The notes under the pieces are model-generated. The model did no database searches, was not told the origin of the DNA, and saw only the letters and a list, made by a program, of their open reading frames with translations. A DNA stretch of 64,000 bases from Limnomonas spitsbergensis. Lineage: Eukaryota; Chlorophyta; Chlorophyceae; Chlamydomonadales. Positions 2,364 to 43,252 of this stretch are shown piece by piece. A program made the translations under genes and the position numbers. The DNA is taken from contig JAYJMM010000112.1 in the NCBI GenBank assembly GCA_037349105.1, forward strand, positions 3,162,001 through 3,226,000. The letters run 5' to 3'. Every line of letters starts with the position of its first letter. Within the stretch, counting starts at the first letter, position 1.

Positions 2364-5300
2364 CTGAGACACAGGGTTCGGTAGGTTCAGGGTTTGGGGT
2401 GGAGGGTTTGGTAGGTAAAGGGTTTGGGATTTGGGGTTCAGTGGGTAAAGGGTTTGGGGTCAAGTGTTTGGTAGGTTAAGGGTTTAGGGTTCGGTAGGTT
2501 ACGGGTTTGGGGTCCAGGTTTCGGTAGGGTAAGGGTTTGGGGTTAACAGTTTGGTGGGGTAAAGGTTAAGGGTTTAGGGAAGTAAGCGCATCTGGGTGAG
2601 TTAGGATGGGCAAGCGCAGGTGAGTGGGCGGGTGAAAACAAATGTGGATACATGATACGCCCTGGGGCGTGGAATGAGGAATTCAGCTGTTTTGCCGTGG
2701 CACTGGGCAGGCTACCGGGCGGTTGCTGCGGGGGAGGGGGAGCGCAGGGGTCGGGCGTCTGGTGTTCAAAACGTGCAGGACAAAACTGGAAAGAGGTGTC
2801 TAGCCGGTCGTTGCTCAACAGCAGCTCAGTGTACTTCACACTCACTCCCCCACACACTTTTATGGGGTTGCCCACTCTTTCTCCTAACCTTTTCATGTGT
2901 GTACACTCTTTCCCTACCGCCATTTCCAAGCGTTACACCCTACCATCTCCCTCTCTCTCTCACCCTTTCCGAGGGCCGCAATGTTGAGGAACACCTCCAT
3001 GATACTGCCATGTGTGCAGGTCGGGACTTACTACGGGCTGCCAGCTGGTCATCGATGGACAGCAGCTTGGTGTGCTGCACACTCCCTCCTTCCCACCCTT
3101 TTCGAGTGTTGCCCACTCTTTCTCTCTCAACCATTCAAATGTGTGTACACTCTTTCCCTACCACCGTTTCCAAGCCTTACACCCGACTATCTCTCTCTCT
3201 CCCTCTCTCAGTCTCTCTCACCCTTTTCGAGGGCCGCAATGCTGAGGATGACCTCGACGATATTGCCAAACGTGGCATTCAGCAGCCTGCATTGGACAAG
3301 ATTAGACGGTGAGACACACACAAATCACGGCATTAGACGTGGAACGGTGTGTGAAGTGTGAACACATCGATCGCAATGCCGAGGATGACATCGAAAATAC
3401 TGCCAAACATGGAATTCAGCTCCCTACAGCAGACACGAGAATGCAACATAACCCAGTCTAAACCCTAAACCCTGGAATTCAGCTCCCCGCAGCAGACGCG
3501 AGGAAGCAACACAACAGCGTCAAGGTAATAATTACCACTCAGCATCATATGCACATGACGGCGTGTGAAGCGTGGACACAAAACTCATGCACTGTCCAAT
3601 CCTGGTGCCTCAAGCTTCAGGCCACTGCAAACAGCCGTGGATGGAAAAGGGGGGAAACTACGCCCACACTCAACAATTACGGTATATTCACACACTGTCC
3701 ACACTTACCCATACCCTCACCCTTACCCCAGCCCTACCTATCCCTAAACTCTTAACCCTACGCCCGCAGACACCCTCCCGGACGCGACCGTCCTCTTCCA
3801 GCACTCAATCACAAGGGTTTAAGGTTTAGGGTTCTGGGTTTCAACCCTGTAACCTACGCCGTCAGGGCAAGGGCATGACTGACCCTAAGCTACGCCGTCA
3901 AGGCAAGGGCAAGGGTATGGGTTTAGGGTTCTGGGTTTCAACCCTCGATCTTACGCCTACGAGGGCAAGGGTATGACTCACCCTCCAACGATGTCTCCAA
4001 AACGAAGGGCGAGATCTGCACGAAGCAACAACCCACAAGGGATGATTCAAACGGGCAGTTACAAGTAACTCGATACATGTTGCATCAGCGAAACCAACAG
4101 ACTACGCCGACCCGTCTTTAAATAAAGAGAAGGCTTCTTCAGCACAAGCAGCAGTCAGGGCAACATGTGTTCACATTTATATCAGCATAAATCAAGGATG
4201 GTATGAATCCCTCATACTTTGATTGTTTTTATACAGTGGGACTTATATAAAGTGTCATTTATGGTTCAATTTAGGGTTATTTAGGGTTAATGGGTAAATT
4301 AATTTCAGTGGGACTTACCGTAAATGACATAGTTTTTAGAAGGGAATTAGTTGTAGACATGTTGTTGTCTCGGAAGTTCTTACATCAAGTTGACGCAACC
4401 ACCCACAGCCTTAAATATTCGTATCGGGGATTCAGGGTGACCAGCAGAACTCTACAGCATCAGACAGAAAAGCAAGACACCCAATCGGGTAACCCCCCAG
4501 CGTTCGGGGGCGTTAAGGGTTTAGGGTATGGGGATTGGGAGTTCAGGGTTTAGGGTTCAGGCGTCCAGGAACCATCTACGTACACCTGCAGGTGCGGTCT
4601 CACCCTCAGTGACGTCACCCAAGATCAGGGCCAGTGGGACGAGGGACAGCATGTTCTGCAGGCATGCAGGAGGCGAGGGTCTTGACAATGCGGGGGTCAG
4701 CGGCAGATTGTGATGACAAAGAATGATGGGGGTGAGAGACTGCATGCTCTGCAGACAGGCAGGAGGCAACACTGTACACATGCAGTACAATACAATACAA
4801 ATGCAGTACACTACATCTGCAATACAATACAAAACAATACAAGACAAATGCAGTGAATGAAGGCCAACGCAACAAACTTGGCAGACGCAGGGCGATTGCA
4901 ATGCTGACGGATTGGCATGCAGGGTTTCCCGCGGGTAAGTGGAAGAGTTTGTGCACGTGTAAGTGCAAGAGTGCGTGTATGTGTGAGTGAAAGAGTTTGT
5001 GTACGTGTGAGTGCAAGAGTGCGTGTACGTGTGAGTGAAAGAGTGTGAGTATGTGTGAGTGCAAGAGTGTGTGTACATGTGAGTGAAAGAGTGTGTGTAT
5101 GTGTGAGTGAAAGAGTGCGTGTACGTGTAAGTGAAAGAGTGTGAATATGTGTCAGTAAAAAAGTGTGTGTGCGTGTGCGTGGAAAAGTGTGTGTACGTGT
5201 GAGTGAAAGAGTGTGTGTGCGTGTGAGTGGAAGAGTGTGTGTACGTGTGAGTGGAGGGGTGTGTGTGCGTGTGAGTAGAAGAGTGTGTGTACGTGTGAGT

Positions 5301-9415: not shown

Positions 9416-11374
9416 CTGGGTGGGACCGAGGGGCATTGTTCAGGGACGCGACAACTCATTAACTGGCAGTTGGGAAGCGTCATTTCTTTTCCAATTTCGT
9501 TTTCAATTTCATTTGTGGGAGTCTACAATCTATCCGTGCATTTGAAAGGGTAGGCCCCACATACCGCGATCAGTGCCCGTGTCATGCTCTTTGATGTCAT
9601 GCTAGTTTGCGGATGTGCAAACAAGAGTCAACACCAAGTTGAACCCGCAATCAGTCAATATCAAGCGCTATCAACTGGTGTAGGCCTGTGCATCGGGATG
9701 ATCGGGTATATGGGTGTGGGGTGCCGAAACCTGAAAGGCATGCCGCTCTGCCACCAGGGTTTGCCATGCGGAGAGTGCCATCGTAGCACCATCGTTACAT
9801 CGACAGGCATCTTCCTCTAACTGTCTGCAAGCGGCGTCGTTCGTGGTTGGTGATACATTTTGTGTTCCCTGTATCTTGAGCAGCTTACATAGCGAAGATG
9901 AGAAGGGGACTGGTCCGAGTTCTGCAGCAGGCTGGTGAGCTGCTTTCTCAATGCGACTATGATAAGATGTGGATGATGATTAAGTGCATGATGCCATCTC
10001 ACTAGCATGTGTTCTTCGCCCTGCAACATCCCTCTCGCACCTGGCATTCTCTGGACCCCTGGACCTTATTATATGTATTGCATACATGATATCCGATCGC
10101 ATTTCAGCTCTCCCAATGAAATGAATGACCGCCGATGTTGATGTTGATGATGATCAAGTTGGTCGTAGACGCTAAAAGCTCCTATTTTTCTGGTTTGTTA
10201 CAACTTAGGTGCGGCGTCCAATGGCGCAGTCCAGTCCGAGGTGCGCTATGCCATCCCGGTTAATGTTGTTTGCAAACTTTTTGCACTGCTCTGCCATCGC
10301 TCCCCTCACGGCTTGTAACATGAAACAATGTGGAAGATCTCATCGCTCAATTTACTTTGCAGTCGGTGGCTGCTGGCCCGGCTATGGCAGCTTGGTCGAG
10401 GTCGATGAGCAGCCATCCCGAGACTCCGATGTCCAAATTCATGCCCGCAATTGCTGCCATCCCTAGGCAGACTTTCAACGCTCTGGTCGGATTCACAGGT
10501 GTGTTCGTCGCTGTCCTCCTCTTTTGTCCCCTCCCTAGTCATGGGGGAGGCACATCGATTCCGGGTCACTGGTGTCCATCACCTCGCTGCTTGTTCGATG
10601 TGAACCCATGTGGGGCCATTGCATGTCATATGGCTTGAGCGCTGATAAGGGGTCCTGGTGGTGGATCAGCCATCACGAACGTCTCGGCAGAGTCTTTCCT
10701 GGCCTGGCTGCGGGACCCTGCGACATGAGTCCATCTGGGAATGCCCTGCCTTGGCCTATTGGCTGTAAACTAGGGCCCTGGCAAGCCATGCTTGGCTGGA
10801 TCCGCATGTTATGATCCGTCAGGCTTCGCCTTCAAGCCCTGCAAACGGGCAACCTTGGAATGCCGAAACCTGGCCCACCAGCCCTAGTCTACGGTCTCAT
10901 CACACTTCGCATGACTGGCTCTGAAAGGGATGGCTCGCCAGCTTCGTCGGCATGGTGTGAAACTTTCTGGAATGCCACAATCCTGCCTATTGGCTCCAGG
11001 TCCCGGAAACTAGGCATGGCTGGTTCTGAAGGAAATGGGCCGTCAGGCCCTCAGCCTGCGGCGTCGGCAGAGCCCCTGCATGAGGAACAGAGCCATACTG
11101 CGATAATAATGGAGAGCCGTGGATGCTAGATTACGAGACAGACTTGGGGGTGGCAAAGCCCTCATGCTGGCCGATGACGAGGACAATGGTGGCAGTCATG
11201 TGTTCCTTCTGGCGACGTCAGCCATCCACATGGTAGCCCTTTGAGAATCTGCACTCCAAGTTGCAACCTCACGCCATAAAATTGTTAGCAGACAAGATCA
11301 TGGTGAGAGCAGCCTCTTAAGAAAATACAACGCCCCTTCCCCCGTTGTTTTGACCCTTACTGTGCCACTCGCAG
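9416..11374. other. Region between the CAX gene (minus) and helical-repeat gene (plus)
   Basis: No recognisable gene. The missing first exons of both flanking genes may be here. A minus-strand open stretch at 10306-10569, rich in Ser, Asp, Glu and His (KEEDSDEHTCESDQSVES), could be an upstream CAX exon, but no splice partner could be proved. Short imperfect repeats with GCCTATTGGCT and CCTGGCAAGCCATGCTTGGC occur at 10740-11040. Confidence 0.4.
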
Positions 11375-11536
11375 GCATGGCCATTGTGGGCGCGGCCACC
11401 TCTGGCCCCATCCGGTCGGTGGTGTCCTCTTTTGCGGACAAGGTTGTCGTGGAGGAGGCCCTGGTCAAGATTGAGGACCTGGACCCCTCATACTGGGCCT
11501 ACTGGCTGGCAGCCACCGGGTACAACAACCAAGCGG
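11375..11536 (+). CDS. Helical-repeat protein exon 1 of those found
   Basis: Acceptor CACTCGCAG before GCATGGCC, donor AAGCGG|GTGCGT. It encodes MAIVGAATSGPIRSVVSSFA and IEDLDPSYWAYWLAATGY. The ATG at 11377 could be a start, but the acceptor-like context argues for an upstream exon. Confidence 0.65.
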
Positions 11537-14500
11537 GTGCGTCTGAAACCGCGACAGGATGCTGCTGGGGTTTAGGGTTGGGTACAGGGCTGCTGGTGTC
11601 TCATGAACACACGTCAATTGTTGGGCCTACGAGGACTTTTATGGGTTCAGGGTTGGGCACAGAGCTGCCGGTGTCTCTTGGACACACGTTGGTCGTCGGG
11701 CTGGGGAGGACTTTTATGGGTGTGGGGAGGACTTTTATGGGTGCTCTCTGTGGGTGCAGGCGGTCTAGGGTTTGGTCGAGTGAGAGAAATGTGGTATGCT
11801 TGGCAGGCATGCTGATTTTTTGACGGGGCGTTGGTCGCCCGCGGATGAAGCATATAATCCTGACCCCAGAGGTTAGGCATGTGAGCCGACAGATGGTCAG
11901 ATGGAGAGGGGGGTGATTCACCCAGCACTGTCAGCTGGGGAGTGGGACCCAGCAGTCCATTGTGGGGAGGTCATGGGACCCAACAGTCTATTGCCTGGGT
12001 GCAAGGTGATTGAGGCACCGCCCTCTGCAGTTGCCCCCCCCACACATGGGCGTCTCCTTACAGCATTGGGTCCAAGTTTGAATTGAACGTTTCAGGGTAA
12101 GCACGCTTAACCCTTTGCGGCCGTTTAAAGCATGGAAGGAAAGGTTTAAGGCATCTCACTTCAACTCCAGCATGGGCGCCCTATACGCAGCACTACGTTG
12201 TTTCGACCATGCAGTTGTTTCGACCATGCAGTTGTTTCGACCATGCAGTTGTTTCGACCATGCAGTTGTTTCGACCATGCAGTTGTTTCGACCATGCTGT
12301 TGTTTCGGCCATGCAGTTGTTTCGGCCACGCAGTTGTTTCGGCCATGCAGTTGTTTGGACCATGCCATTGTTGCGACCATGCAGTTGTTTGGACCATGCC
12401 ATTGTTGCGACCATGCAGTTGTTTCGACCACGCAGTTGTTTCGACCATGCAGTTGTTTCGACCATGCAGTTGTTTCGACCATGCAGTTGTTTCAGCCATG
12501 CAATTGCTGCGACCATGCAGTTGTTTCGACCATGCAATAGCTGCGACCATGCAGTTGTTTCGACCATGCAGTTGCGGATCAGTAGGATCTGTACCCTTGC
12601 CCGCCCGGTGGCTCCAACGGCAGGGCTTGCCCGGCCAGTGCAGCTGCGTTCCGGTGCAGCTGCCCGTTCAATAGGGGCTGGACCCTTGCCCGGTGCATGC
12701 AGCTGCAGCAGTAGGGCTTGCTTCACAGGGCCTTCGTGGCCCATGCAGCTGCATTGTAGCCTAAGTGTAGCCCAAGCAAACAGCGATCTGAACCTTGGGG
12801 ACTACCGAACGGGACTGAGAGCGAACAGGTGGCTTGCTGAACTGGATCCCTGGGCGCTCAGCTAAATATTCTAGCTTGTCCGATGTGTGGCGGCTGAGTA
12901 TCGGGCAAGGTTTAAGAGGCAAAGGTGATGCCCTGCCCCTGACCTTGACCCTTCCCTTGACCCTGACCCTGACCTTACCTCTTGACCCTGACCTTCCCCT
13001 TGACCCTTCCCTTGACCCTGACCCTGACCTTACCTCTTGACCCTGACCTTCCCCTTGACCCTGACCCTGACCTTACCTCTTGACCCTGACCTTCCCCCTG
13101 ACCCTGACCTTGACCCTGACCAGACCCCTTGCCCCTGCCCTCGCCCCGGCCCCTCTGTTGACCCCCCTATCTGTCTGATTTCCGATTTGCCGATTGGTCG
13201 TGCTTCATGCAGGTTTCAAGAAGCTGGCGGAGGCGGCCAAGGCCAAGGCTGCTTCGTTCAGCGCGGTGCAGATCACCAACCTCGTCACTGGCCTGCACAG
13301 GTGAGCCCGCCAGGTTGAGAGTACGTGGGCAACAGAGCCGGGCGACGACCCTAGTTACTGGCCTGATCAGGTGAGCCTGCTGTGCTGTCCATGAGAACCT
13401 AGCAGCCCTGGCCTGCACATATGAGCGATGGTCTGAAAGCATGTGGGCAACAGAGCCGGGTGATGATCTAGTCACTGGCGTGCCCAAGTGATCCTGTCAG
13501 GTTACCCATGAGAACCCTGCAGCGCTAGCCTGCACTGGTGAGCCTACTGGGTTGAGAGCATGAGGGCGACTGAGACGAGCGCTGAACGTGGTTTGTTTCC
13601 CCATGGCAGCCGCCCATCTAGGGGCAGCTATACCTTAAAGCATCCGCCAGGAGGCCAAATGTATGAACTGCCCAGCTGCATTGCTGCTTAAGCCGCCGGC
13701 CATAGGTCCATCTGGGTTTGGTCCCCCCATTGTGGTTTGTGCAGCCGAGGGGCGGCCCATCCGCCGCGGGACCCAAAACAAAAATGTTGTAGGGTGGGGG
13801 GCATGTGGGCGACTGAGCAGGGCGCCGATTGGCCTGTGCACAAGTTAAATCAACCTGGGCTGGGTGGGGCCTCTGAAAGTGCAGCCTGAACGAGGCATCT
13901 GTGTCTGTACGGTTGGGACAGCTTTCATGTGAGCTGGACGCTGGATGCAAAATCGACGCTGACGCCCCCTCGGGGAGCCTGAATGGAGAGGAGACGTGGA
14001 TTTTATAGATGCCTCTAATTGGGCGGCGCTAGAGTTAATGCAACGCTTGTTGGGAGGTTTGTGGATCGAGGGAAACCGCCTTCAGGGCCGTAGCCTGTTA
14101 TTTGGCTGCTGTGGGTGGACTGGGGCTGTGGGTAGGTGGGTGGGTGGAATGGCTGCTGTGGGTGGACTGGGGCTGTGGGTAGGTGGGTGGGTGGAATGGC
14201 TGCTGTGGGTGGACTGGGGCTGTGGGTAGGTGGGTGGGTGGAATGGCTGCTGTGGGTGGACTGGGGCTGTGGGTAGGTGGGTGGGTGGAATGGCTGCTGT
14301 GGGTGGACTGGGGCTGTGGGTGGGTGGGTGGGTGGAATGGCTGCTGTGGGTGGACTGGGGCTGTGGGTGGGTGGGTGGGTGGAATGCCTGCTGTGGGTGG
14401 ACTGGGGCTGTGGGTGGGTGGGTGGGTGGAATGGCTGCTGTGGGTGGACTGGGGCTGTGGGTAGGTGGGTGGGTGGAATGCCTGCTGTGGGTGGACTGGG

Positions 14501-17500
14501 GCTGTGGGTGGGTGGGTGGGTGGAATGGCTGCTGTGGGTGGACTGGGGCTGTGGGTGGGTGGGTGGGTGGAATGGCTGCTGTGGGTGGACTGGGGCTGTG
14601 GGTAGGTGGGTGGGTGGAATGGCTGCTGTGGGTGGACTGGGGCCGTAGGCACTATCTAATGGCTACTATGGGCTACCTGTGGTTGCTACTTCTTGACCAG
14701 GTCACCCTCAACCATGGCTTGCCATACCACACGCTATACCACACGCCATACCACACGCCATGCTCGCTCTCTGAACTGTCAGGTGATGCCTCATGCCCAG
14801 GCGGGCAGAGCGCATCACTTGACAACTGAATGGGGCAATGGTGCTTGGGTTTGCGCCTCGCATGCATGAGACTTGAAACAATTTGAGCCAGCGCACATAA
14901 TCCGTCTGACCCTCTCCTTGCTTCGCTCTAAGCCACACAGCTTTCCCTCTTTTGACCCTGTTGCCCTACCCCCATCCCTGTGCCCCCCTGTCTGTGCGTA
15001 AAAATGAACGAGAACGACCAGCAGCATGCACCCCTTTGCTTCATACCAGCAGCCCGCACCCCAAGATCACCTGGCTCAATTCCCACGCCATCTCTCGCCC
15101 CAATATATTCCATTCAATTTATTCCATTCCACCCTCGTCTCATCTCTCTCCCCCTATGCCCCCTGCCAGTGTACACATGTATGACAAGGACCTTTACGAG
15201 GGCATTGCCAGCAACATCAGCGCAAACTTCACTAAGTTTGAAACAGACCAGCTGCTCAAGGTGGGCAGGGAGGTTAGGGTTCGGGCTTCATTGGCTGCCT
15301 TTTTCAGCGAAAGGTAAGGTTACACATCCAGGGCTTAACTCTGAACTTGGCAGGAGATTCCCTGACTTCCGACTAGGGCACGCTGCCCCAGTTTGCCCAG
15401 GGCTCTCTACACCACTGCCACGCCTCACTGCCTCACGCACCTCCCCCCGCCTCACCTAACAACTTTGAATCTAGACCGCTGTTCAAGGTTTGCCCAAGCC
15501 CCCCCCCCCCCTACTTAACATCACTGCCTCACGCACCCGTCCTGTCCCCTCCCCCCCTCGCTCACCTTGCAACTTCGAATCTAGACCCGCTGTTCAAGGT
15601 TTGCCCAGGGTTCCCCACCCCTGATATACCTCACGCACCCGTCCTGCCCCCCCCCCCCCCTCGCCCACCTTGCAACTTCAGATCATCAAGGCATTTGCCG
15701 ACAACGGCCACTTCAACGCCCAGCTGTACGACGACGTCGCGGACTCCATCACCTACTGCAACCACTACCTGGCTCCCATCAAGGTGGGACAGGCGTCCAA
15801 TCCGGAACCTTGCGCCAACCCTGAAGCTACTTCATCCTTCACCCTTGTCCTTCCTTGTTCACGAGCTGTTTGAGGACCCCCCCCGTCATTCAAGCTGTAC
15901 CTGTCCCACCTACCTAGGTGCTGCTAGTCCTTAACATTACACCTTGGAAGGTGCTCCACCCTTTCTCAATCTTGAGCTGTTTGAGGACCCCCCACCTCCC
16001 CCTCCATCAAGCTCTTCCTGACCCACCTATCAAGGTGGTACCGGGATCAAGTCCTGAACATTGCACCTTGGAAGGTGCTTCACCCTCTCTCAATCTTGAC
16101 TTGTTTGACGACCACCCCTCTATCAAGCACCTGGGGTTCATGATCACTCAAGTGGCACCCATTAACGATGGACAGGGAAGTGGGTTGCCTAGAAATCCTA
16201 AAATCTGACTCCATTGAGGATGGACAGGAAAGTAGGGTGCCTGCACACCCCAATCAATACACCCGGGGGCATGGATGAAGGAAGCACAGTTCAGCTGAAC
16301 CACAAACCATTAACCCTTAACCCATCCTCCCTATGATCCACCCAGGCGCTTCCAAACCCTGAGCCTATCCTTCCCTATCCATCCAGGTGCTTACCAACCC
16401 TGACCCCTGAGCCCATCCTTCCCTATCCATCCAGGCGCTTACCAATTCTGAGCCTTGAGCCCATCCTTCCCTATCCATCCAGGCGCTTACCAACCCCTGA
16501 GCCCTGAGCCTATCCTTCCCTATCTATCTAGGCGCTTACCAACCCTGAACCCCTGAACCCATCCTTCCCTATCCATCCAGGTGCCCACGAACGAGGTTGT
16601 GGCTGCCCTCACGGCCTATGCCAAGTTTGGCCATGACCGCGGTGACCTGTTCGTTACCCTCACACGGTGAGTGCTTGTTTCGAGGGTAGAAGGGGAGCCT
16701 TCCTAGTTTCTACCCAAGTGCACCCTGATCTGATGAGCGCTTGTTAGGGGGGGGAGGGGGGCGTAAACCTTCCTACCCAACACACACCCTGACCAGGAAA
16801 CTGCATGTACAGGGTTCAGGGTGTCATCCCTTGATGGCATCAGCATGGTCGTCTAAGGACTCCCATGCACCTGCAATATCTGTTCTAGATCCGTAAGACC
16901 TCCGCACCAGCGAGGTCGGGCTTGCCAGGCTGGATGCCAAGATCTGTATGAGATCCGTGAGATCTGACCGATCTGGATCCTTTAGACTCTGTTGGCCTCC
17001 TCAGGGGCATCAACAAGGATGGACTCGCCAGGATGGACGCCAAGATCTGTACTAGATCCATGAGATCTGAAAGATCTGAATCCTGTCACCTCTGTTGGCC
17101 ACCTCAGGGGCATCAGCGAGGTTGGACTTGCCAGGCTGGACGCCAAGACCCGGCGCGACACCGTTGTGGCCGGCCTGCAGGCGCTGTCCACCCTCAACTT
17201 CTACCCGGAGCAGGTGGACGCGCTGCTGTACTACACGAAGACAGAGGTGCGGGGTTTGTGTGAGATGGTGTGGAGCTGGTGTGATTGGGTGTTGACAATG
17301 TGGGGAGTGTGGCAAACTATTTGTTTTGAGGGTATGACAAGGGATGTACTACAGAAGAAGTAAAAAAACTGTGTGGAAATAGTTTGGTGCAAGCAGGGGC
17401 GTGAGTGCGTGACCATATGTCACACATGAGGCTAAGGTTCCAGGACGAGATGTGCCGTCGCGATGACTCATGCTCAGGCTTTCGAACACCATGCATGCAT

Positions 17501-19098
17501 TGTTTGTGCCCTGCCCAGCAGTGTTCCTCTCATAGGCTGCCAGGCTACCTCCCATCTATTGGCCTCCCATAGGGTGCCATGCCGCCTCCCCACCTATTGG
17601 CCCTCCGACAGCCATCACTGGGCCAGTGTGGACCGAACCACCTGGTTCAGCCTATGGCTGTTTGTTTGAGCAGCAGGGCTTGCAGCGCCGGGCGCCCACA
17701 GCCGTAGGCTGTGATCGAGCTGAAGGGTGCTAAAGCAAACGGCGCTCTTCTCCCCCCCCACCATCGCTCGCAAAGAATCCAGACCTGCTGGCCTCCCGAC
17801 CGCGAATCCAATTGCGCCTGCCGGCCCGAGAACCGCTCATCGTGCCCGTGCTTTTCGTCCCTCTTAAAGCTGTTGGATTTTCTCACCGGTGTGGTTACTG
17901 GTTTCATGCGCCTCATGGCACCACACGCACATCGCACACCGCTTCAAAAGCCTAGTTTAGGGTGTCTAGGGGCTAAACCCTTAACCCTAAACCCTTGTGG
18001 CACCATGCTCATCGCACACAGCTTCAAAAGAAGTACTAGTGAAAACCCACACCTTGGAAATGCTTGCATCTAGGTCCTGTGTAAAAACTCCACCATATTC
18101 CTGTCTGCACAGCCCGAGCAGTACACGCCCGAGGAGCTGAAGGCTGCCGACAGCATAACGTCTGCCGTTGAGGCGCAGACTGGAGGACAGCTGCAGACCT
18201 ACACCCCCAGCGACGAGGACGCGGTGCATTGGTGAGGCTTGCGGGCTGAGGGAGGGGCATTACCTTTGCACTTCCCCAACTCCAACCCAGCGATGAGGAC
18301 GTGGTGCATTAATGAGGCTTGCAGGCTGAGGGAGGGGTAATACTTCCGCTCTTAGCCTTTTACGCCCATCCCAGCCATGAGGACATGGTGCATCGGTGAG
18401 GCTTGCGGGCTGAGGGAGGGGTACTATTTTATCTTTAACTGAACCCAGCGACGAGGACGCTGTGCATTGGTGAGGCCCTCGGGATGAGAGAGGGGCAACA
18501 TTCTTGCCATACAGCTTTTACTCGTAACCTAACCATGAGGACGCAGTGCATTGGTGAGGGTTGCGGACTGGGGGAGGCACTTGTTTTGTTTTAACCTTTT
18601 AGCCCGTTAGCCAGTGACGGGGATGCTGTGCGTGGGTGAGGCTCGTGGGCTCAGGGAGGCAAAAACGTTGCCCTAAACCTTCACAGCCCGTAATTCAGCA
18701 ACGGGGTTGTTGTGCATTGGTGAGGGATGCAATGTTGTTGCCATAGACCTTTAACCGTAACCCAGCGACGGGGTGCTGTGCGAGGGTGAGGCCCATGGGC
18801 TGAGAAATTTAACATTGTTGCCCTAAACCTTCAACCCTGAACCCAGTGCCAAGGGCGCTGTACACGGGCGGTGCTTGAATACGCCTGGTGCTTAGCTTCA
18901 GCGCATGTGTATTATTCACCTGGTGCTTAGCTTCAGCGCATGTGTATTATTCACCCTGTTGCTCTCCTTTGTGTGCCCTCCCCCACCAGGTACGGCCACC
19001 ACCAGCCAGCTCCCTCGGCCTACGAGCTGTACGTTTTCAGGGACTCCCTAGTCCCTCACTCGTACTCTCCGGCCTCAGTCCGAGCGAGCAAGAAGTGA
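11375..19098 (+). CDS. Alpha-helical-repeat protein (partial 5'), possibly organellar
   Basis: Eight exons join with exact phase: 11375-11536, 13213-13300, 15170-15260, 15682-15783, 16581-16666, 17108-17246, 18113-18231 and 18990-19098 (TGA). They give about 298 residues. The product is rich in amphipathic helices of the pattern LLKIIKAFADNGHFNAQLYDD, VVAALTAYAKFGHDRGDLF and VAGLQALSTLNFYPEQVDAL, like FASTK/OPR/HEAT-type helical repeats, and ends YSPASVRASKK. I cannot name it with confidence. One idea, from memory only, is a chlorophycean mitochondrial ATP-synthase-associated (ASA) subunit; an organellar RNA-binding helical repeat protein is another. The first exon recovered is entered in phase 1, so at least one upstream exon is missing. 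The protein is real by phase and composition; its function is open. Confidence 0.75.
11550..11760. repeat. Diverged tandem repeats after the first exon
   Basis: Two to three copies of a segment with GGGTTGGGTACAGGGCTG, GGTGTCTCATGAACACACG and GAGGACTTTTATGGGT at about 11575 and 11650, then a shorter piece near 11700. Starts with a telomere-like GGTTTAGGGTTGGG. Confidence 0.65.
12195..12580. repeat. 17-bp tandem array
   Basis: About 22 copies of GTTGTTTCGACCATGCA with GGACC/GGCC/GCGACC variants. The unit has no stop in any reading and 17 is not a multiple of three, so several frames on both strands are open; none is a plausible gene. It lies in the first intron of the helical-repeat gene. Confidence 0.9.
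12930..13125. repeat. CCTTGACCCTGACC simple repeat
   Basis: Irregular tandem CTTGACCCT/GACCCTGACC units just upstream of the exon at 13213. Confidence 0.85.
13213..13300 (+). CDS. Helical-repeat protein exon
   Basis: Acceptor TTCATGCAG, donor CTGCACAG|GTGAGC. Enters phase 1, leaves phase 2. Encodes FKKLAEAAKAKAASFSAVQ and ITNLVTGLH. Three diverged copies of its donor edge follow. Confidence 0.75.
13340..13560 (+). repeat. Echo copies of the 13300 donor edge
   Basis: Copies at about 13348-13380 (AGTTACTGGCCTGATCAGGTGAGCC), 13470-13500 and 13520-13570 resemble the real junction GTCACTGGCCTGCACAG|GTGAGCC and its following GTTGAGAG..GCAACAGAGCCGGG. Confidence 0.7.
14104..14645. repeat. 47-bp tandem array
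   Basis: About 11.5 copies of GGCTGCTGTGGGTGGACTGG plus GGCTGTGGGTAGGTGGGTGG and GTGGAAT. GGCTGCTG alternates with CCTGCTG in some copies. Intronic, in the helical-repeat gene. Confidence 0.95.
15170..15260 (+). CDS. Helical-repeat protein exon
   Basis: Acceptor CCTGCCAG, donor CTCAAG|GTGGGC. Enters phase 2, leaves phase 0. Encodes VHMYDKDLYEGIASNISANF and KFETDQLLK. Confidence 0.78.
15460..15681 (+). repeat. Echo copies of the 15682 acceptor edge
   Basis: Three copies of a C-tract followed by CCACCTTGCAACTTC, the upstream side of the real acceptor, each with CTGTTCAAGGTTTGCCC spacers. Confidence 0.65.
15682..15783 (+). CDS. Helical-repeat protein exon
   Basis: Acceptor CAACTTCAG, donor ATCAAG|GTGGGA. 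The 102 bp are phase 0 at both ends. Encodes IIKAFADNGHFNAQLYDDVA and DSITYCNHYLAPIK. Confidence 0.8.
15784..16100 (+). repeat. Echo copies after the 15783 donor
   Basis: The real junction CCCATCAAG|GTGGGAC is followed by diverged copies (CCACCTATCAAGGTGGTACC at about 16023). Intervening GAGCTGTTTGAGGACCCCCC blocks occur at about 15862 and 15970. Confidence 0.65.
16310..16580 (+). repeat. Echo copies of the 16581 acceptor edge
   Basis: Five to six copies of TCCTTCCCTATCCATCCAGG followed by CGCTTACCAA..CCTGAGCC. Each ends in CCATCCAG like the real acceptor, giving a ladder of potential acceptors upstream of the exon. Confidence 0.8.
16581..16666 (+). CDS. Helical-repeat protein exon
   Basis: Acceptor CCATCCAG, donor CACACG|GTGAGT. 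Enters phase 0, leaves phase 2. Encodes VPTNEVVAALTAYAKFGHD and RGDLFVTLT. Confidence 0.8.
16895..17107 (+). repeat. Two echo copies of the 17108 exon start
   Basis: Segments at about 16905-16960 and 17003-17060 resemble the real exon start (GGCATCAGCGAGGTTGGACT then TGCCAGGCTGGACGCCAAGA), each followed by ATCTGT..AGATCC.TGAGATCTGA. The copy at 17003 is preceded by GGCCTCCTCAG, a plausible decoy acceptor. Confidence 0.75.
17108..17246 (+). CDS. Helical-repeat protein exon
   Basis: Acceptor GCCACCTCAG, donor ACAGAG|GTGCGG. Enters phase 2, leaves phase 0. Encodes GISEVGLARLDAKTRRDTVV and LSTLNFYPEQVDALLYYTK. Confidence 0.8.
17586..17715. repeat. Dispersed family B copy
   Basis: GCAGCAGGGCTTGCAGC.. 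CCACAGCCGTAGGCTGTG belongs to a roughly 120-150-bp dispersed family (core GGCCGTAGGCCGGTCAAGG and TTTGGTCCCAATCGGCC) seen about ten times in the window. Intronic here. Confidence 0.5.
18113..18231 (+). CDS. Helical-repeat protein exon
   Basis: Acceptor GTCTGCACAG, donor GCATTG|GTGAGG. Enters phase 0, leaves phase 2. Encodes PEQYTPEELKAADSITSAVE and TPSDEDAVHW. Confidence 0.8.
18232..18870 (+). repeat. Eight echo copies of the 18231 donor junction
   Basis: Copies spaced about 75-85 bp repeat the exon end and donor (CCAGCGACGAGGACGCGGTG then CATTGGTGAGGCTTGCGGG and CTGAGGGAGGGG) at about 18290, 18370, 18450, 18533, 18612, 18695, 18762 and 18845, with increasing divergence. Most keep GGTGAGG, so they are potential decoy 5' splice sites. 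Confidence 0.85.
18990..19098 (+). CDS. Helical-repeat protein last exon
   Basis: Acceptor CCCCCACCAG, TGA stop at 19096-19098. Encodes YGHHQPAPSAYELYVFRDSL and ends YSPASVRASKK. A 35-bp duplication (CACCTGGTGCTTAGCTTCAG..) lies upstream at 18880-18955. Confidence 0.8.
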
Positions 19099-31959: not shown

Positions 31960-32090
31960 GGGGGGGGTGATGTTATCAGAAAGTGTGATGATACCAGAAG
32001 GGTGTGGCGATACCAGTTAGTGTGATGATTTCAGTCAGTGTGATGATGCCAGCAAGTGTGATGATGCCATGAAGTGGGATGATCAGGGAG
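31960..32090. repeat. 17-bp degenerate repeats
   Basis: Several copies of AGTGTGATGATRCCAGNA. The surrounding 31920-32300 is G-rich with telomere-like GGGTTAAGGGGGTTTGAGG. Confidence 0.7.
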
Positions 32091-33940: not shown

Positions 33941-34178
33941 TCTTAAACCCTTCCTAGACCGTTCCTGTACACTGTAGATTTGCTTTGCCTTCCCCTCTTA
34001 ATTAATGTTGTTTGGGGTTGAGGGATCCGTGAATTTACTGACTTTCGATTGTCGATGCCAGTTTCTAGTAGGAAATCAAGAGTTTTTGATGACAGGTTGC
34101 CATGAGGGCAGCATCAAAACAATTAGTTTCAAAATGCCTGATGGAAGGCACGTCAAATCTACGGTACCCCGCAAATTA

Positions 34179-35815: not shown

Positions 35816-38800
35816 CTGCAGCAGCAGTACAGCATCAGCGGGGGGGGCAGGTCAGGTAGTTTGAGTGAGTCTGAGAAAGCGGTACTCCCGCGGGAGCGGT
35901 AGGTCAGGCAGTACAGGCCACAGTATGAGGCACCAGGTAGCAGGAGTGGCAGGTCAGGCAGGATAGGTAGGTCTGCGACAGCGGAAGACTTCTTCGGGAT
36001 ATCTCTCCGGGGGGGGGGGGAGGGTAGGTCTGGGCCAGCAGGTGACAAGTAGAAAGGAAGGGGTGGATGAAGGTCCAAAAATGAACTGTTGACCGACGTG
36101 CGAGTCCAGCCCAAATGTATTGGCAGCAAAGCAAGGCAGATGCAGCAAGGAGAGACGAGGCTGTAAAACGAATGTCAGAGGAAGCGAATCCCATGGAGAC
36201 AAGATATGACAGTTCAAGGAGGTTTGAACGCTCCAGCGCCACAGGCCCTCAATCCGCATTGCGTACAGCAGAAACAGCACAGCTCACCCCTCCCCACCCC
36301 ATCCCACCCCACCCTCCCCATCCCTCCCCTCCCCTCCCCCACCCCACCCCGTCAACACACCCTTCAGCAAGTGCTTGGCCAGGTAGGCGCTGTTCTTGGC
36401 CTGCTTGAAAAAACGGTGGTTGGACAGTGCGCCTGCCCGGGGCCGCTGCGAAGAGTCCCTCTGCAGGCAGAGCGCGACGACCTCGCGCATGTGCCGCGAG
36501 AACACCCTGGGGCGTGCTGGCGCCATGCTGGGCTGCGCCAGGTGGAACGGGCTGTTGCCAGGCAGGTCTTCCTGGTGGTTGAGGAGGTGCGCCGTGGGGG
36601 GGTTCTGCAGCGGGAGAGGCAGCGGGGGGGGCAGGATGTGTGGGGGGGAGCAGGTGGAACGGGCTGTTGCCCGGGAGGTCCTCCTGGTGGTAGAGGAGGA
36701 GCGCCGTGGGGGGGGTCTGCGGCGAAAGAGGCAACGAGGGGGGGACAGAATGCCGGGGGGTGTCAGAAGAGGGTTCTGCAGCGGGAGAGGCAGCGGGGGG
36801 GGGGGCAGGATGCGGGGGGTGTCAGGAGAAGGGTTCAGGCAGTGGCCAGTATGCGTGGGCAAGATGCGAGGGGTCAGAGGAGGGGTTCAAGCAGGCGGAG
36901 GGCCAACAAGGGTAGGAGGAGAACCTTCGATGCTTGCGAGCAGCAGCCATCAAGACCCGCCTCTCCTATTTCTGAAGCTGCTCTCTGATTTCTGCAGCTG
37001 CCCCTCCCCATTGGGATGTGGACTGTGGGGCCTGCTTCCCAAAGCCCTGAACCCGAAACTCTAAAGCCCTGAACCCCCCAAAACCCTTAACCTGCTTCTC
37101 TTAACAGTGAACCTGGCTCCATGAACACCTGGTGCCTGCTACTTTTAAGGTACGCCCTCTTGCCCTGCAGCATTTGGAGTCTCACTCAGCTGTAAGGCAG
37201 GCCCTCAAAATCTCTAGCAACTCCCTCAGCTGCGCGGCGCGAGTCTCAACATCTCATTTACTTCCTCCAGCTGCCAGACGGGAGCCTCCCCTCCCCTCCC
37301 CTCCCCCTCCCCCCTTCACCTGCAGCGTCATCATGAGGACCTTTAGCGGTGGGTACTTGGCGAAGGGAGCGTGGCCATGCGCCAACTCGAGGAGCGTAAT
37401 GCCGAAACTCCTGGGGTGGAGCAAAGCATTCCAGACAGTCAGAGGAGGAAAGGGGTTCAGGTCGCCACGATGACCGCGCTTCAAGAGCGTTCGGCTAGGG
37501 TTCAGGGTTTAGGATTTTGGTTATTCTGAAGATAGTCATGGTTGAGGGTTTTGGTCATTCTGAAGATAGTCATGATTTAGGGTTCTGGTCATTCTTAAGA
37601 TAGTCAGGGTCTAGGGCTCTGGTCATTCTTTAGGTAGGCAGGAAAGGTACATTTTTTACCACTGGTTCTGGGGTGAAAGGAAACAGAGGCTGCAGACAAA
37701 AATACGTACCAGTAAGCTAGCACAGGGTTCACTGCACAACAAATACCGGTAGTCAAACACACAAATCAAGATCCGGATCACAGTCTATAGCTCGTACATC
37801 ACAATGCCACACTTCCTCACCAGATGTCTGCAGCAGAGTCGTAACCACTCTCCTGTGATCCGGGCAGCCACAGGGGGGAGGGGGGGGAGGAGGGGAGGAG
37901 GGGAGCAGAGGCAGACGTCAGGACGCAGGTACTAAGGAGGGGAAGAGACCCGGATAGGGAAGGTCCAGGGTTAAGTGCTTACAAGCAGCTACAGGGGGGA
38001 GGGGAGAGGAGAACAGCACAGGCAGACATCAGGACGCAGGCACTTAGGAGGGGCAGACACCCGAATAGGGGAGGCGCAGAGTTAAGGGCTTACAAGCAGC
38101 TACAGGGGGGAGGGGGGAGGAGAACAGCACAGGCTTCTTTAGGGTTATGGATTTTAGGTTTCAAACCCTAAACCCTGTGATTCGGGCAGCCATAGGGGGA
38201 GGGGGGGAGGGGGGGAGCACAGGCTTGTTTAGCTAGGAGATTTGAACCTCTATACCAGGACGCTAGAATTTAAAAGAATGAAGCCTTGAGCTCTAACAAG
38301 GCACCTCACATCAGCTCCCCCCCCTCTTCCATTTTGGAAGACCCCCCCCCTCCCCTGCTATTCTGGCACTCTCACAGCATCACTACGTCCTACTGCTGCA
38401 CCCATAGCAACGAATGCACGCAAGCATGACAATCAATGTTACAGGGTTTAAGGGATACAAGGGGTCAAGAACTTGAACCACAGAAGCAGGACGGACAAGC
38501 CACTTCCACACCTCCCTCCCTCTCCAAGGCTGTCCCCTCCCCACCCCGCCCTCAGCTCCACGCACAACTCCCGCACTGTCCCCATCCTGTCGTGCCACCG
38601 TTCTGCACCCCCGTCCCTATTCCCGTCCCCGTCCTACGTCACCCCACACCGTCCCTGCCCCCTGTCCCCGTTCCACCCCCATTTTGGCATCCTGCCAAGT
38701 AACCATTATTCTTCGCCACGTCCTACCCGTCCCCGTCCTCAACCCCTTCCTGCCCCGCCTCATCCTTGCCCTGGCAACCTACCATGCCACCATCATGCAC

Positions 38801-41800
38801 CACCCCGTCCCCATCCCCATCCTGCGCCTCCCTATCATCATCCTGGCATCCAGCCCATGCCACCATCATGCACCACCCCGTCCCCATCCCTGCTCAAGGA
38901 CTTCCGGAACCATCCTGCGCCGTCCTCTCACCATCCTACAACCCTGCCATGCCACCAGTCTGCACCACCCCATCCCCATCCCCATCCCCATCCCTGCTGC
39001 ATCGCATACCTGCTCAAGGACCTCCGGAACCATCCTGCGCCGTCCTCTCACCATCCTACAACCCTGCCATGCCACCAGTCTGCATCGGCCCATACCCATC
39101 CCCACCCCTGCTGCATCGCGTACCTGCTCAAGGACCTCCGGAGCCATCCAGCAAGGACTGCCCACCATTGAGGAGCGGGCGGTGAGAGCGCTGCCCCAGG
39201 AGTCCGCCCTCTGCATGGTCGCAGATATGCCCATGTCACCCAGCCGCACGTCACCATCCCCACCCACCAAGATGTTTCCAGCCTGAGGGGCAGGGCAGGG
39301 GGGGTCAGGGAAAGGGGGGGTCAGGGCAGGGGGGGTCAGGGCAGGGGGGGTCAACCATCCTGTCACCACGAGCCTCACAATATAATTTCAAATCTTGCAG
39401 ATGACACCGCGTATGGCCGGGCGCATGCATTCGCAAAGAAAGGAAGAAATCAGTCAGTTTGACCTGCATAGCATGGTCAAGCAGCTGTCATCTGTGTTTC
39501 ACCACCCATTCACACACACCTAGTCCATCCATTCACACACACCTGGTCCACTCATTCACACACACAACTGGTCCACTCCTACATCCAACTCTTTATCCCC
39601 CTACCCTTCACCCCCCCCCTTCACCCATCTAACCCATCATCCCCCCCTCCTTCACCCATCTAACCCTTCACCCCCCCCCTTCACCCCCCTCCCCCCTTCA
39701 CCTACCCCCCCTTCGACCCCCCCCCTTCACCCCCCCCCCCTTCACACACACCCCTTCACACACCCCCACCAACTTGCACCCACCTTGACATCTCTGTGGA
39801 TGGCCCCCTGCCGGTGAATATACTCCAGCGCCTGCAGCACCGCCAGCATCACCCTCCCTTCATCCCCACCCCTTTATCCCCCCCCCACTTCACCCACCCC
39901 ACCCCCGTCACCCACCCGCCAAGTTGCACCCACCTTCACATCCCTGTGGATGGCCCCCTGCCGGTGAATGTACTCCAGCGCCTGCAGCACCGCCAGCATC
40001 ACCCTCCCTTCATCCCCACCCCTTTATCCCCCCCCCACTTCACCCACCCCACCCCCATCACCCACCCGCCAAGTTGCACCCACCTTCACATCCCTGTGGA
40101 TGGCCCCCTGCCGGTGAATGTACTCCAGCGCCTGCAGCACCGCCAGCATCACCGTCGCGATGGCCGGCTCCTCGAGACCCCCCGGGTGGCCGTACTTCAT
40201 GATGTGGGCCACAGACCCACCCTGGCCAGGCACAAGAGTGTGACACACGATAAGGGTGGAGCCAATTTAATGCCAGGGAGGGGAAGGGGGGATTGAGGGT
40301 GGTCAGGAAGGAGCTTTTCACCGCTACCAGGTGGAACCAAAAACCGAGCTCTTGGGGCGCAAATCAGGTAGAAAGCAGATATAATGCAAGGGCGGGGAGG
40401 ATGGTCGGGGGTGAAATGGGGTGCAGGAGCAGGGGAGCAGGGTAAGGGGTGGAGGTGAGACCAACGCCAGGGACCTGGTCCTGGCGTGTGGCAAAGGCCA
40501 GGCGTCTCGAGATCTTCTTTTCTCACCTCCAGGATTAACTGGTACGGAAATATGGTGCGGCCAAACGGGGCTCGGTGTGGATACCAGTACAGCATGGTCA
40601 GAATGCAGATTAAGAAAAAGGCCGATACGATTTCATTATTACGGTGTGGTACTATTGGAGGGTACGATCAACAGTGCGGGATTTGGGCCCAATCGGTCAT
40701 CCTGGGTCACCCTGCTCACCGTCATGTATGGCATGACTAGGTACAGGTACTCCCCATCCACAAAGGAGCAATGGAGAGGAAGCAGGTGGGCGTGCCTGCG
40801 CATCAAGAGAAAAAGTGGGCAGCAGCAGGGGTCAGGGCAAAGCAGAAACAGGTCAGGCAGTTGGAAGCTATGGAGAGGAAGCAGGTGGGCGTGCCTGCGC
40901 ATCAAGAGAAAAAGTGGGCAGCAGCAGGGGTCAGGGCAAAGCAGAAACAGGTCAGGCAGTTAGAAGCTATGGAGAGGAAGCAGGTGGGCGTGCCTGCGCA
41001 TCAAGAGAAAAAGTGGGCAGCGGCAGGGGTCAGGGCAAAGCAGAAACAGGTCAGGCAGTTAGAAGCTATGGAGAGGAAGCAGGTGGGCGTGCCTGCGCAT
41101 CAAGAGAAAAAGTGGGCAGCGGCAGGGGTCAGGGCAAAGCAGAAACAGGTCAGGCAGTTAGAAGCTATGGAGAGGAAGCAGGTGGGCGTGCCTGCGCATC
41201 AAGAGAAAAAGTGGGCAGCGGCAGGGGTCAGGGCAAAGCAGAAACAGGTCAGGCAGTTAAAAAGCTATGGAGAGGAAGCAGGTGGGCGTACCTGCGCATC
41301 AAGAGAAAAAGTGGGCAGCAGCAGGGGTCAGGGCAAAGCAAAAACAGGTCAGGCAGCAGGAGCAATTTAGAGGAAGCATGTGCTCGTGCTTGCAGCGCAT
41401 CGGGAGATTAATTGGGCAGCAACAGAATCCTGAACAGAGGCAAAAACTGGTTAGGCAGCAGGAGCAATGTTGCGTAGGTGCCTCTTCAGGTCCCGGGGAA
41501 GGTCAAGGCGGTGATTCACCCGCTGAAACAGGATGCGCAAGCACTCGGTAGTTTCCCGCTGGAGGCTACGCGAACAGACGCATTGCATCTGCCCCAAGAC
41601 TGGACTGCACATGCCATTTCCCCCCTCCCCGAGTGACACCCACCCTGCTTCCTTTCCATAGCACCTGCTGCCTGACCTGATTTTGCTTTGCCCTGAACCC
41701 TGCTGCTGCCCGCTCATTCTCTCCATGCGCAGGTGCACCCGCCTGCTCCATAGCTTCGGGGCAACCTCGGAACCAGCAGGATGGGCCACAGCCCCAGGTA

Positions 41801-42794
41801 AGCCCCAATGACCTTTGACTTTGCTCTTCTTTGCCACGACAGCTGTTCAGCCACAACTTGGGGGCAACCTGAGCCAGCAGGATGGGTCACAACCCCAGGC
41901 AAGCCCCAATGTCCTTTGCCTTTGCTGTTCTTTGCCACGACAGCTGTTCAGCCACAACTTGGGGGCAACCTGAGCCAGCAGGATGGGTCACAACCCCAGG
42001 CAAGCCCCAATGTCCTTTGCCTTTGCTGTTCTTTGCCACGACAGCTGTTCAGCCACAACTTGGGGGCAACCTGAGCCAGCAGGATGGGTCACAACCCCAG
42101 GTAAGCCCCAATGTCCTTTACCTTAGCTGTTCTTTGCCACGACAGCTGTTCAGTCACAACTTGGGGGCAACCTGAGCCAGCAGGATGGGTCACAACCCCA
42201 GGCAAGCTCCAATGTCCTTTGCCTTCGCAGTTCTTTGCCTCCACAGCTGTTCAGCCACAACTCAGCTACCTCACTGCCTGATGACGGCATGGACTGCCAG
42301 TCATACGCCGGCCCAGCTTTTATCCCAATTGGACTTCCCACAAATGAGGGGCCGCCCATATCAAAGGCAGACCTGCAGCCTAAAAATAGCACACCGAGTT
42401 ACCCTCACCTCAGGCTCTCCATGAGGCCCTAAACCCTAAAACCTAAACCCAAAACCCTCACCTCAGGCTCGTCATAAGGCCTTAAACCCTTAACCCTAAA
42501 CCCTAAATCCTTAACCCAAAACCCTCACCTCTGGCTCGTCATGAGGCCCTAAACCCTTAACCCAAAACCCTCACCTCAGGCTCGCCATGAGGCCCTAAAC
42601 CCTGAACCCTTAACCCTAAACCCTCACCTCAGGCTCGCCATGAGGCCCTAATCCCTTGACCCATAGCCCAAAACCCTCACCTGAGGCTCGCCATGAGACA
42701 CGCCTCTCCGGTGAGACCATCCAGCTCAACTGAGAGGCAGTTGAGGCTGCAACGCTTGATCGCCACCACCTCCTTCAAAGGCAGGCACTTAGAC
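34179..42794 (-). CDS. STE20-type protein kinase, SPAK/OSR1/BLUS1-like (partial 5')
   Basis: Ser/Thr kinase. Exons in gene order are 42681-42794, 40720-40795, 40084-40221, 39124-39282, 37821-37852, 37320-37410, 36361-36571 and 34179-35815; phases join exactly and give about 818 residues. Motifs in order: VAIK lysine, hinge LVMPYMTGGS, HRDVK catalytic loop, GDMG in place of [13 protein letters not shown] activation segment, [38 protein letters not shown] and the plant-type VADWNFNL. The C-terminus is a long Gln-rich coiled coil plus low-complexity sequence with three GRFx[VI] motifs. The Gly-rich loop exon is not found and should lie above 42.8 kb. Relatives act in ion-transport and blue-light signalling; the role here is inference. 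Nearly every intron holds copies of its own splice junction. Confidence 0.88.
36361..36571 (-). CDS. Kinase exon: C-lobe end
   Basis: Acceptor ACCACCAG, donor AAGG|GTGTGT. Enters phase 0, leaves phase 1. Encodes [20 protein letters not shown] and [20 protein letters not shown]; the Arg of the RP motif that closes the kinase fold is present. Confidence 0.88.
36572..36900 (-). repeat. Echo of the 36571 acceptor edge and G-rich repeats
   Basis: At about 36648-36710 the exon start and upstream intron (plus strand GGTGGAACGGGCTGTTGCC..AGGTC.TCCTGGTGGT) are repeated with few changes. Smaller units GGTTCTGCAGCGGGAGAGGC recur at about 36600, 36715 and 36770. Confidence 0.75.
37320..37410 (-). CDS. 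Kinase exon: [20 protein letters not shown]
   Basis: Acceptor CCACCCCAG, donor CTGCAG|GTGAAG. Enters phase 2, leaves phase 0. Encodes subdomain IX and following helix, ending [10 protein letters not shown]. Confidence 0.9.
37821..37852 (-). CDS. Kinase micro-exon: [11 protein letters not shown]
   Basis: Only 32 bp between acceptor GGATCACAG and donor CATCTG|GTGAGG. It supplies the invariant Asp of subdomain IX and restores phase between 39124 and 37410. Confidence 0.82.
37853..38220. repeat. G-rich tandem repeats carrying the 37852 acceptor context
   Basis: Units with GGGCAGCCACAGGGGGGAGG recur at about 37862, 37985, 38098 and 38186; the last keeps CCCTGTGATTCGGGCAGCC, the sequence just upstream of the real acceptor. 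Telomere-like AAACCCTAAACCCTG lies at about 38163. Confidence 0.7.
38880..39123 (-). repeat. Two echo copies of the 39124 donor junction
   Basis: Plus-strand copies at about 38888-38960 and 38996-39085 (TACCTGCTCAAGGACCTCCG then GAACCATCCTGCGCC) repeat the exon end VPEVLEQ and its GTA donor; period about 114 bp. Confidence 0.8.
39124..39282 (-). CDS. Kinase exon: magnesium loop and activation segment
   Basis: Acceptor GCCCCTCAG, donor GAGCAG|GTACGC. The 159 bp are phase 0 at both ends. Encodes [20 protein letters not shown] and [15 protein letters not shown]. The Asn of the catalytic loop and the APE are conserved; Phe of DFG is Met. Confidence 0.9.
39590..39780. repeat. C-rich CCTTCACCCCCCC low-complexity tract
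   Basis: Irregular runs of CCCCCCTTCACC in the intron between the catalytic-loop and magnesium-loop exons. Confidence 0.85.
39781..40221 (-). repeat. 150-bp tandem triplication of the catalytic-loop exon end
   Basis: Copies begin at 39781, 39931 and 40081, exactly 150 bp apart. Each carries, on the minus strand, the coding end [18 protein letters not shown] and its donor AAG|GTGGGT; the outermost copy has a few substitutions. The true exon (40084-40221) is the only one with the upstream half and acceptor. Confidence 0.9.
40084..40221 (-). CDS. Kinase exon: GGS hinge to HRDVK
   Basis: Acceptor CCTGGCCAG, donor GTGAAG|GTGGGT. The 138 bp are phase 0 at both ends. Encodes [20 protein letters not shown] through [12 protein letters not shown], with the catalytic Asp. 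Confidence 0.92.
40720..40795 (-). CDS. Kinase exon: hinge beta strands
   Basis: Acceptor GATGCGCAG, donor ATGACG|GTGAGC. Enters phase 2, leaves phase 0. Encodes [20 protein letters not shown] and MPYMT. Confidence 0.85.
40771..41370 (-). repeat. 99-bp tandem array built on the 40795 acceptor edge
   Basis: Copies of ATGGAGAGGAAGCAGGTGGG start at 40771, 40870, 40969, 41068, 41167 and 41267. On the minus strand every copy has the decoy acceptor TTGATGCGCAG and the codons for HAHLLPL before diverging from the real exon. Six acceptors are therefore lined up ahead of the true one. Confidence 0.92.
41800..42250. repeat. 101-bp tandem array
   Basis: About four copies with GGATGGGTCACAACCCCAGG, AAGCCCCAATGTCCTTTGCC and GCCACGACAGCTGTTCAGCC. 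Intronic; no exon copy recognised in it. Confidence 0.9.
42400..42680 (-). repeat. Five echo copies of the 42681 donor with telomere-like spacers
   Basis: Plus-strand CACCTCAGGCTCGCCATGAG recurs at about 42408, 42462, 42528, 42570 and 42626, separated by GCCCTAAACCCTTAACCC. Minus strand: the codons LMASLR plus donor GTGAGGGTTT, then TTAGGG-type repeats. Confidence 0.88.
42681..42794 (-). CDS. Kinase exon: VAIK lysine and helix C
   Basis: Acceptor CCCCTCAG, donor CCTCAG|GTGAGG. Enters phase 2, leaves phase 2. Encodes [20 protein letters not shown] and [11 protein letters not shown], with the ATP-binding Lys and helix-C Glu. Confidence 0.9.
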
Positions 42795-42829
42795 CTGAGG
42801 GGGGGGTGATGGCGTGCTTCAGTTACACT

Positions 42830-43252
42830 TCAGCTACACTTCAGCTACACTTCAGCTGCATCATCGCCACCACCTCCCTCAAAGGCGGGCACTTGGACCT
42901 GGTGAGGAAGGAGGGATGTGTTTATGTGCTTCAGCTACACTTCAGCTACACTTCAGCTGCATCATCGCCACCACCTCCCTCAAAGGCGGACACTTGGACC
43001 TGGTGAGGGAGGAGGGTTGTGTTTATGTGCTTCAGCTACACTTCAGCTGCATCATCGCCACCACCTCCTTCAAAGGCAGGCACTTGGAGAGGAAGGAGGG
43101 TTATGTTGTTGTGTTGGGTATGTGTCAACTGGATGCTTTGGACGGAAGCTGGCCAGATGAGGACCAGATCATCAGTATATTTTGGGGGGGTGCTTCAGCT
43201 ACACTTTAGCTGCATCATCGCTACATATTCCTTCAGAGACAGGCACTTGGAC
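42830..43252 (-). repeat. Four echo copies of the 42794 exon start
   Basis: Plus-strand CATCATCGCCACCACCTCCC then TCAAAGGCGGGCACTTGGAC recurs at about 42860, 42962, 43047 and 43213, each beside CTTCAGCTACACTTCAGCTG. On the minus strand they encode KCPPLREVVAM-like peptides, copies of the VAIK exon start. Confidence 0.85.

Follow-up and report, generated by a model that had tools for sequence, protein, structure and literature searches.

Genes at the locus and placement of their exons

The homologues of the genes found in the window (the whole stretch of 64,000 nucleotides of DNA analysed here) suggest a chlorophycean green alga as its source. Three genes bear the repeats described below: one for a kinase of the STE20/Fray/OSR1 type, one for the ASA3 subunit of the mitochondrial ATP synthase of algae and a third, present in part, for a CAX exchanger. 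The kinase gene, on the reverse strand (36359..44148), was modelled with eight exons (44148-44099, 42794-42681, 40795-40720, 40221-40084, 39282-39124, 37852-37821, 37410-37320 and 36604-36359) based on splicing, homologues, alignment and a match to PF00069 (E 3.7e-50), the start of exon 1 and both the acceptor and the end of exon 8 being provisional. The ASA3 gene, on the forward strand (9898..19098), was modelled with ten exons (9898-9934, about 10390-10498, 11375-11536, 13213-13300, 15170-15260, 15682-15783, 16581-16666, 17108-17246, 18113-18231 and 18990-19098) from splicing, homologues, alignment and PDB 6rd4. It had been described in an initial annotation of this DNA as a helical-repeat gene; its product shares 81% identity over 94% of the query with a JGI sequence and 56% identity over 88% with a Haematococcus protein named 36.3 kDa ATP-synthase-associated, and matches Polytomella ASA-3 (PDB 6rd4 chain 3, E 4.5e-56). 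No relative of ASA3 was found in the viral contigs or genome contigs searched. The part of the CAX (Ca2+/H+ exchanger) gene that could be placed, on the reverse strand (2298..4655), comprises four exons (4655-4604, 4015-3982, 3286-3222 and 2363-2298) and matches PF01699 (E 9.6e-7).

Ten open frames from the rest of the window returned one weak match when compared with Pfam. Two direct repeats of 822 bp (21290-22111 and 29644-30465) share 99.5% identity and have the appearance of terminal repeats of a young LTR retrotransposon. Within this LTR-like element, an open frame (26746-27303, forward strand) shows a weak likeness, below the family cut-off, to a C-5 cytosine DNA methylase (PF00145, E 0.0026), and a plasmid search with a long open frame of the retroelement gave no match.

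Altogether 22 exons were placed (eight in the kinase gene, four in CAX and ten in ASA3), and 18 of the 19 introns between them are of the GT..AG type. The acceptor of ASA3 exon 2 (10390) is a guess and lacks a preceding AG, but it was counted all the same among the 38 junctions analysed below. In alignments with seven kinase and eight ASA3 homologues, the six ASA3 junctions shown are gap-free, and one of seven kinase junctions (exon 5/6) has one residue missing in two homologues. The acceptor of kinase exon 8 is uncertain, because the exon as modelled holds 21 residues, beginning four residues past the acceptor, that are absent from the homologues. The alternative acceptor is a CAG before about 36541; neither choice matches the homologues well, and the copies at this junction are therefore weak evidence. 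The extra residues (36541-36604) fall inside a repeated unit, so that either the repeat entered the exon or the acceptor lies further on. The CAX exon edges were placed by frame, phase and the Pfam match rather than by alignment, and the 38 junctions do not include acceptor 4655 and donor 2298 of this gene, as only one end of each of their introns could be placed.

Tandem copies of exon edges within the introns

The initial annotation had reported, at eleven junctions of these genes, tandem copies of the exon edge within the adjacent intron. An offset listing and pattern counts confirm that such arrays exist there, and in the eleven cases counted by pattern, shuffled sequence yields hardly any copies (means 0 to 0.04). 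Across ladders, 3-73 nt of exon are copied, at donors as well as acceptors, and the unit length varies by ladder, with periods of about 48-150 bp in most of them. The reported copy numbers proved exact for seven of the eleven junctions and off by about one for the remaining four. It was also borne out that many copies keep GT or AG, so that decoys adjoin the true sites.

The ladders of the kinase gene lie, like the gene, on the reverse strand. The acceptor ladder of exon 3 (40767..41393) has a 99-bp unit and six copies, as reported, before the true acceptor at 40795; about 32 exon nt are copied, AG is kept in five of the six copies and four of them equal the true site over 25 nt. Exon 2 has ladders on both sides. 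Its donor (42681) is followed by five copies, again the reported number, with a unit of about 53 bp (42401..42697; copies at 42628, 42575, 42529, 42462 and 42409, all with GT), and its acceptor (42794) is preceded by the four copies reported (42828..43252), the best ones with 36-41 exon nt. The donor of exon 4 (40084; ladder 39704..40153) has a 150-bp unit including 73 exon nt and two copies (39934 and 39784), one of which is identical over 26 nt, while the donor of exon 5 (39124; 38885..39149) has copies at 39010 (GT) and 38890 (GG); two copies had been listed for each of these donors. At the uncertain acceptor of exon 8 (36604; 36539..36775), two copies (36716 and 36775) plus a weak third were found against the one reported.

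In ASA3 (forward strand), the donor of exon 9 (18231; 18206..18790) is followed by seven copies rather than eight, from 18311 to 18785, six of them with GT. This ladder is diverged throughout (0.52-0.82); likeness to the true site drops away from the exon, from 0.82 to 0.63, and the distant copies are also alike among themselves (0.73-0.78). The acceptor ladder of exon 7 (16581; 16357..16581) has a 48-bp unit with 4-11 exon nt, and four copies were pattern-counted (16386-16531) with a further, weaker one besides, against the five to six reported. The acceptor of exon 8 (17108; 16924..17148) has the two copies reported, with a 103-bp unit, one of them gapped and the best, at 17005, carrying 41 exon nt. 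The donor of exon 4 (13300; 13300..13543) has four copies instead of three (13370, 13420 without GT, 13487 and 13537), and exons 5 and 6 show four weak echoes, on both sides.

In CAX (reverse strand), the longest ladder was absent from the earlier list. It follows the donor of exon 4 (2298; 1507..2311), with a 70-bp unit and 11 copies (11 donors listed, 10 by pattern count) that carry only 4-13 exon nt. The other CAX copies (2964..4748) are degenerate, single or few: they belong to donors 3982 (copy at 3884) and 3222 (copy at 2964) and acceptor 3286 (copy at 3423), all three new with respect to the earlier list, and to acceptor 4655, with the one weak copy already noted (4748, 32/39).

Two further properties concern the ladders as a group. 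First, homogenised inner units (0.96-1.00 identical) with diverged edges are seen in two of the four ladders compared, namely the kinase exon 3 acceptor ladder and the donor ladder of CAX exon 4; of the other two, the ladder of kinase exon 4 has too few units and that of ASA3 exon 9 is diverged throughout. Second, exon sequence never makes up more than half of the period in the 15 ladders of a self-compiled list, which leaves out four weak cases (ASA3 exons 5 and 6, both sides) and in which decayed copies may be trimmed.

Junctions compared with the rest of the introns

We defined an echo as a junction-spanning window of 60 nt that recurs in the adjacent intron, and scored it at the 38 junctions of the 19 introns against a chance level given by 760 shuffled-intron comparisons (99% point 16, maximum 18). 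Fifteen of the 38 junctions are echoed (eight donors and seven acceptors, out of 19 each), with scores of 18-58, the acceptor of ASA3 exon 5 reaching only 18. From interior positions of the same introns, 16.9 would be expected in total, about 8.4 per side. Neither the statement that most introns are affected nor the description of the arrays as copies of the splice junctions themselves was confirmed. Windows from exon interiors recur in 55 of 326 cases. When the windows were shortened to 40 nt and copies were sought within 1 kb, 13 of the 38 junctions (0.34) had a copy, compared with 0.46 of positions in introns and 0.21 of those in exons; thresholds of 15 and 20, at which 15/38 and 11/38 junctions are echoed, leave the outcome unchanged. 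Shifting the mask circularly, gene by gene, gave a mean of 16.3 (sd 3.0), with a probability of 0.90 for a count at least as high as that observed and 0.17 for one at most as high.

Along the profile, echo frequency is 0.08 at a point 44 nt inside the exon and has risen to 0.34 where the junction is reached; 100-200 nt into the intron it is about 0.5, with no peak at the junction among these 38 junctions of three neighbouring genes, a sample so small that mild enrichment would escape the test. The observed distribution is thus junction-blind, and junctions are not echoed more often than the remainder of the genes, an outcome that the initial annotation itself had taken as speaking against its proposal of intron growth by repeated duplication of the boundary as such. 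Because the profile climbs without a junction peak, the copies at junctions mark the margin of something that happens throughout the introns, and no junction-directed process is needed.

The introns are indeed rich in repetition. At equal GC, positions with a local copy make up 0.42-0.46 of introns and 0.10-0.13 of other DNA, about a fourfold contrast, where "other" means 19099-36000 and 44149-60000, part of which is the young LTR element, and leaves out the repeat-rich stretches 1-2297 (0.79), 4656-9897 (0.55) and 60000-64000 (0.93), whose inclusion would shrink the contrast. The first of these stretches is probably a CAX intron. GC content is not supported as the cause of the repeat-rich introns, since the contrast persists at equal GC; age may underlie it, the other DNA including the young LTR element. 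The same introns also hold many arrays without any exon sequence, those at 12197-12574 and 14103-14643 among them.

Introner-like elements are single repeat families common to many introns. A shared element of this kind was rejected here, as a single 22-bp match was found among the 19 introns at E 1e-5; it is the sole match between introns of different genes. Elsewhere in the window, 6054-7934 holds 38 copies of a 49-bp unit, with 98% matches, and 60346-63962 is taken up by a 23-bp array of about 158 copies, open in several frames, while 2.3 kb at 19099-21400 have no local copies (0/575 positions), unlike the neighbouring introns. Telomere-like heptamers occur as TTTAGGG (17 times) and CCCTAAA (18 times) in the window, where about 8 in all are expected at equal base frequencies, and some of them sit in the donor ladder of kinase exon 2, at 42427-42614.

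Origin of the ladders and choice of the splice site

The pattern, which could not be placed when it was first noticed, has a published name, "mirages" (PMC3087553, PMC3902484). Mirages occur in amphioxus Adh3, the globins BflGb6 and BflGb9, PGBD5 and troponin C, the last two being said to show the same pattern (PMC3902484). They are described as boundary-spanning tandem repeats at 5' and 3' ends, with units of 10-160 bp, of which many keep AG/GT; their inner units are homogenised and their edges diverged, and RT-PCR suggests normal splicing (PMC3087553). The algal repeats resemble them in crossing exon edges at both 5' and 3' boundaries (15/38 junctions), in keeping AG or GT in many, not all, copies and, in two ladders, in combining homogenised inner units and diverged edges. 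They differ in occurring in a green alga, with several ladders in each of three neighbouring genes and up to 11 sites. Moreover, splicing and length polymorphism were measured in amphioxus, whereas normal splicing of the single algal haplotype is suggested by protein homology. Searches of the open-licence literature listed no report of mirages in algae, and the mirage papers found concern amphioxus only.

Other known cases share less with the algal ladders. In potato RdRp, a tandem duplication across an intron-exon boundary is reported to have made a new intron (PMC4974935). Like this case and that of fission yeast SPOG_01682, the algal ladders involve tandem duplication of exon edges; unlike them, they show no new intron, the likeness of donor and acceptor being at background in 18 of 19 introns. 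Human minisatellites at exon-intron boundaries alter genes, often by extending into the exon or by creating an intron, according to one study (PMC2812944), which also cites a 2007 paper on human introns arising from tandem arrays. Human and algal repeats both lie at exon-intron boundaries, but the algal protein appears unchanged. Finally, a survey of Chlamydomonas and Volvox found introns to have the highest tandem-repeat density of all gene regions, more so toward intron ends; exon-edge copies such as those of the present alga are not described in the portions of it available to us (PMC3887541).

We consider it probable that the ladders are minisatellites of the mirage kind, produced by tandem duplication in introns that is blind to the junction, with the outermost site still being spliced. 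Introns would gather tandem duplications irrespective of the splice junction, and some duplicated segments would cross an exon edge by chance. Such a duplicate could be tolerated by selection while the spliceosome keeps the outermost site (first donor, last acceptor), for the mRNA would be unchanged because the extra exon edge then lies within the intron. Unequal exchange or slippage may then multiply and homogenise the inner copies. Use of the outermost site is suggested by protein conservation. Besides the junction-blind distribution, this reading is supported by the variation of unit length and exon part between ladders, the lack of a repeat common to the introns, the premature stops that most inner sites would bring, the GT and AG kept about as well as neighbouring bases, the normal splicing of amphioxus mirages of like anatomy, and the homogenised inner units with diverged edges, as expected of minisatellite turnover.

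Three observations argue against blind growth. The limit of the exon part to half of the period, in all 15 listed ladders, is not predicted by blind breakpoints; the decay of the ASA3 exon 9 ladder with distance is what serial copying of the edge would give; and the survey of two green algae finds tandem repeats denser toward intron ends (PMC3887541). The first two points would favour a junction-directed process, in which exon edges, for example through breaks or R-loops, duplicate repeatedly, each round of copying adding to the length of the intron, and this would also fit the many introns affected at both ends. We nevertheless hold it unlikely, as junctions are not enriched over intron interiors, arrays free of exon parts are common in the same introns and the mutual likeness of the distant exon 9 copies is as dimer units would have it.

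The decoys themselves are largely intact. Among donor copies outside the CAX exon 4 ladder, G is kept in 14/16 and T in 15/15, and acceptor copies keep A in 12/12 and G in 11/12; these donor counts come from a second count that excludes the CAX ladder, which had supplied 10 of the 26 donor copies of the first. Selection against decoys was not seen, GT and AG being kept about as well as the neighbouring bases. If an inner site were used, a premature stop would follow for 27 of the 31 decoys translated, and the frame stays open in four (39010, 40894, 36775 and 36716). A regulatory role of the ladders, with decoys that tune splicing or make isoforms, would be compatible with these four open frames and with the uneroded sites, but the 27 premature stops and the fact that no decoy is kept better than its surroundings make it very unlikely. 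It is even less plausible that misassembly multiplied the repeats: an aberrant assembly of one amphioxus mirage is on record for a draft genome (PMC3087553), yet the algal copies are diverged in several ladders (0.52-0.90) and units differ between ladders. Least credible is the birth of the introns by tandem duplication of AGGT exon segments, of which the ladders would be leftovers, a model that had been mentioned at the outset and that is not supported although several junctions are surrounded by AG|GT, because donor and acceptor surroundings score only 5-10 in 18 of the 19 introns (two reach 10; shuffled mean 6.6, 95% point 9.0), the clear exception, kinase intron 4 at 16, looking like G-rich low complexity.

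As all counted copies lie in introns, the chosen site would be the one next to the exon, with the qualification that any duplication breaking the mRNA would have been lost and so could not be observed today. Site strength alone cannot account for this choice, because decoys with identical letters adjoin the true sites. With a scoring matrix built from 20 donors and 19 acceptors, the true acceptor of kinase intron 2 is equalled or outscored by 10 of the 121 AG sites there, and the true donor of kinase intron 4 by 2 of its 74 GT sites. Preference for the exon-adjacent site is what might follow if sites were paired across the short exons (32-246 nt). A bolder reading, which we regard as possible but rather doubtful, is that transcribed introns, and not DNA at large, are targeted by tandem duplication and that the spliceosome always takes the outermost of equivalent sites. 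If true, the ladders would be natural experiments for exon definition, in a lineage with intron retention as its commonest form of alternative splicing, as reported for Volvox (PMC4378016).

Taken together, the pattern is real, striking and local, and was correctly seen in the initial annotation, though its kind is already known. It would extend mirages to green algae, with several per gene. It also carries a warning, as exon boundaries predicted in genomes of this kind may be wrong. Where decoys nearly identical to the true site are present (acceptor of kinase exon 3, donors of kinase exon 4 and CAX exon 4), cDNA would reveal whether site strength or the position next to the exon guides the spliceosome. 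The main value of the locus lies in its natural splice-site ladders as a set and in the question of why the introns are so rich in tandem copies.
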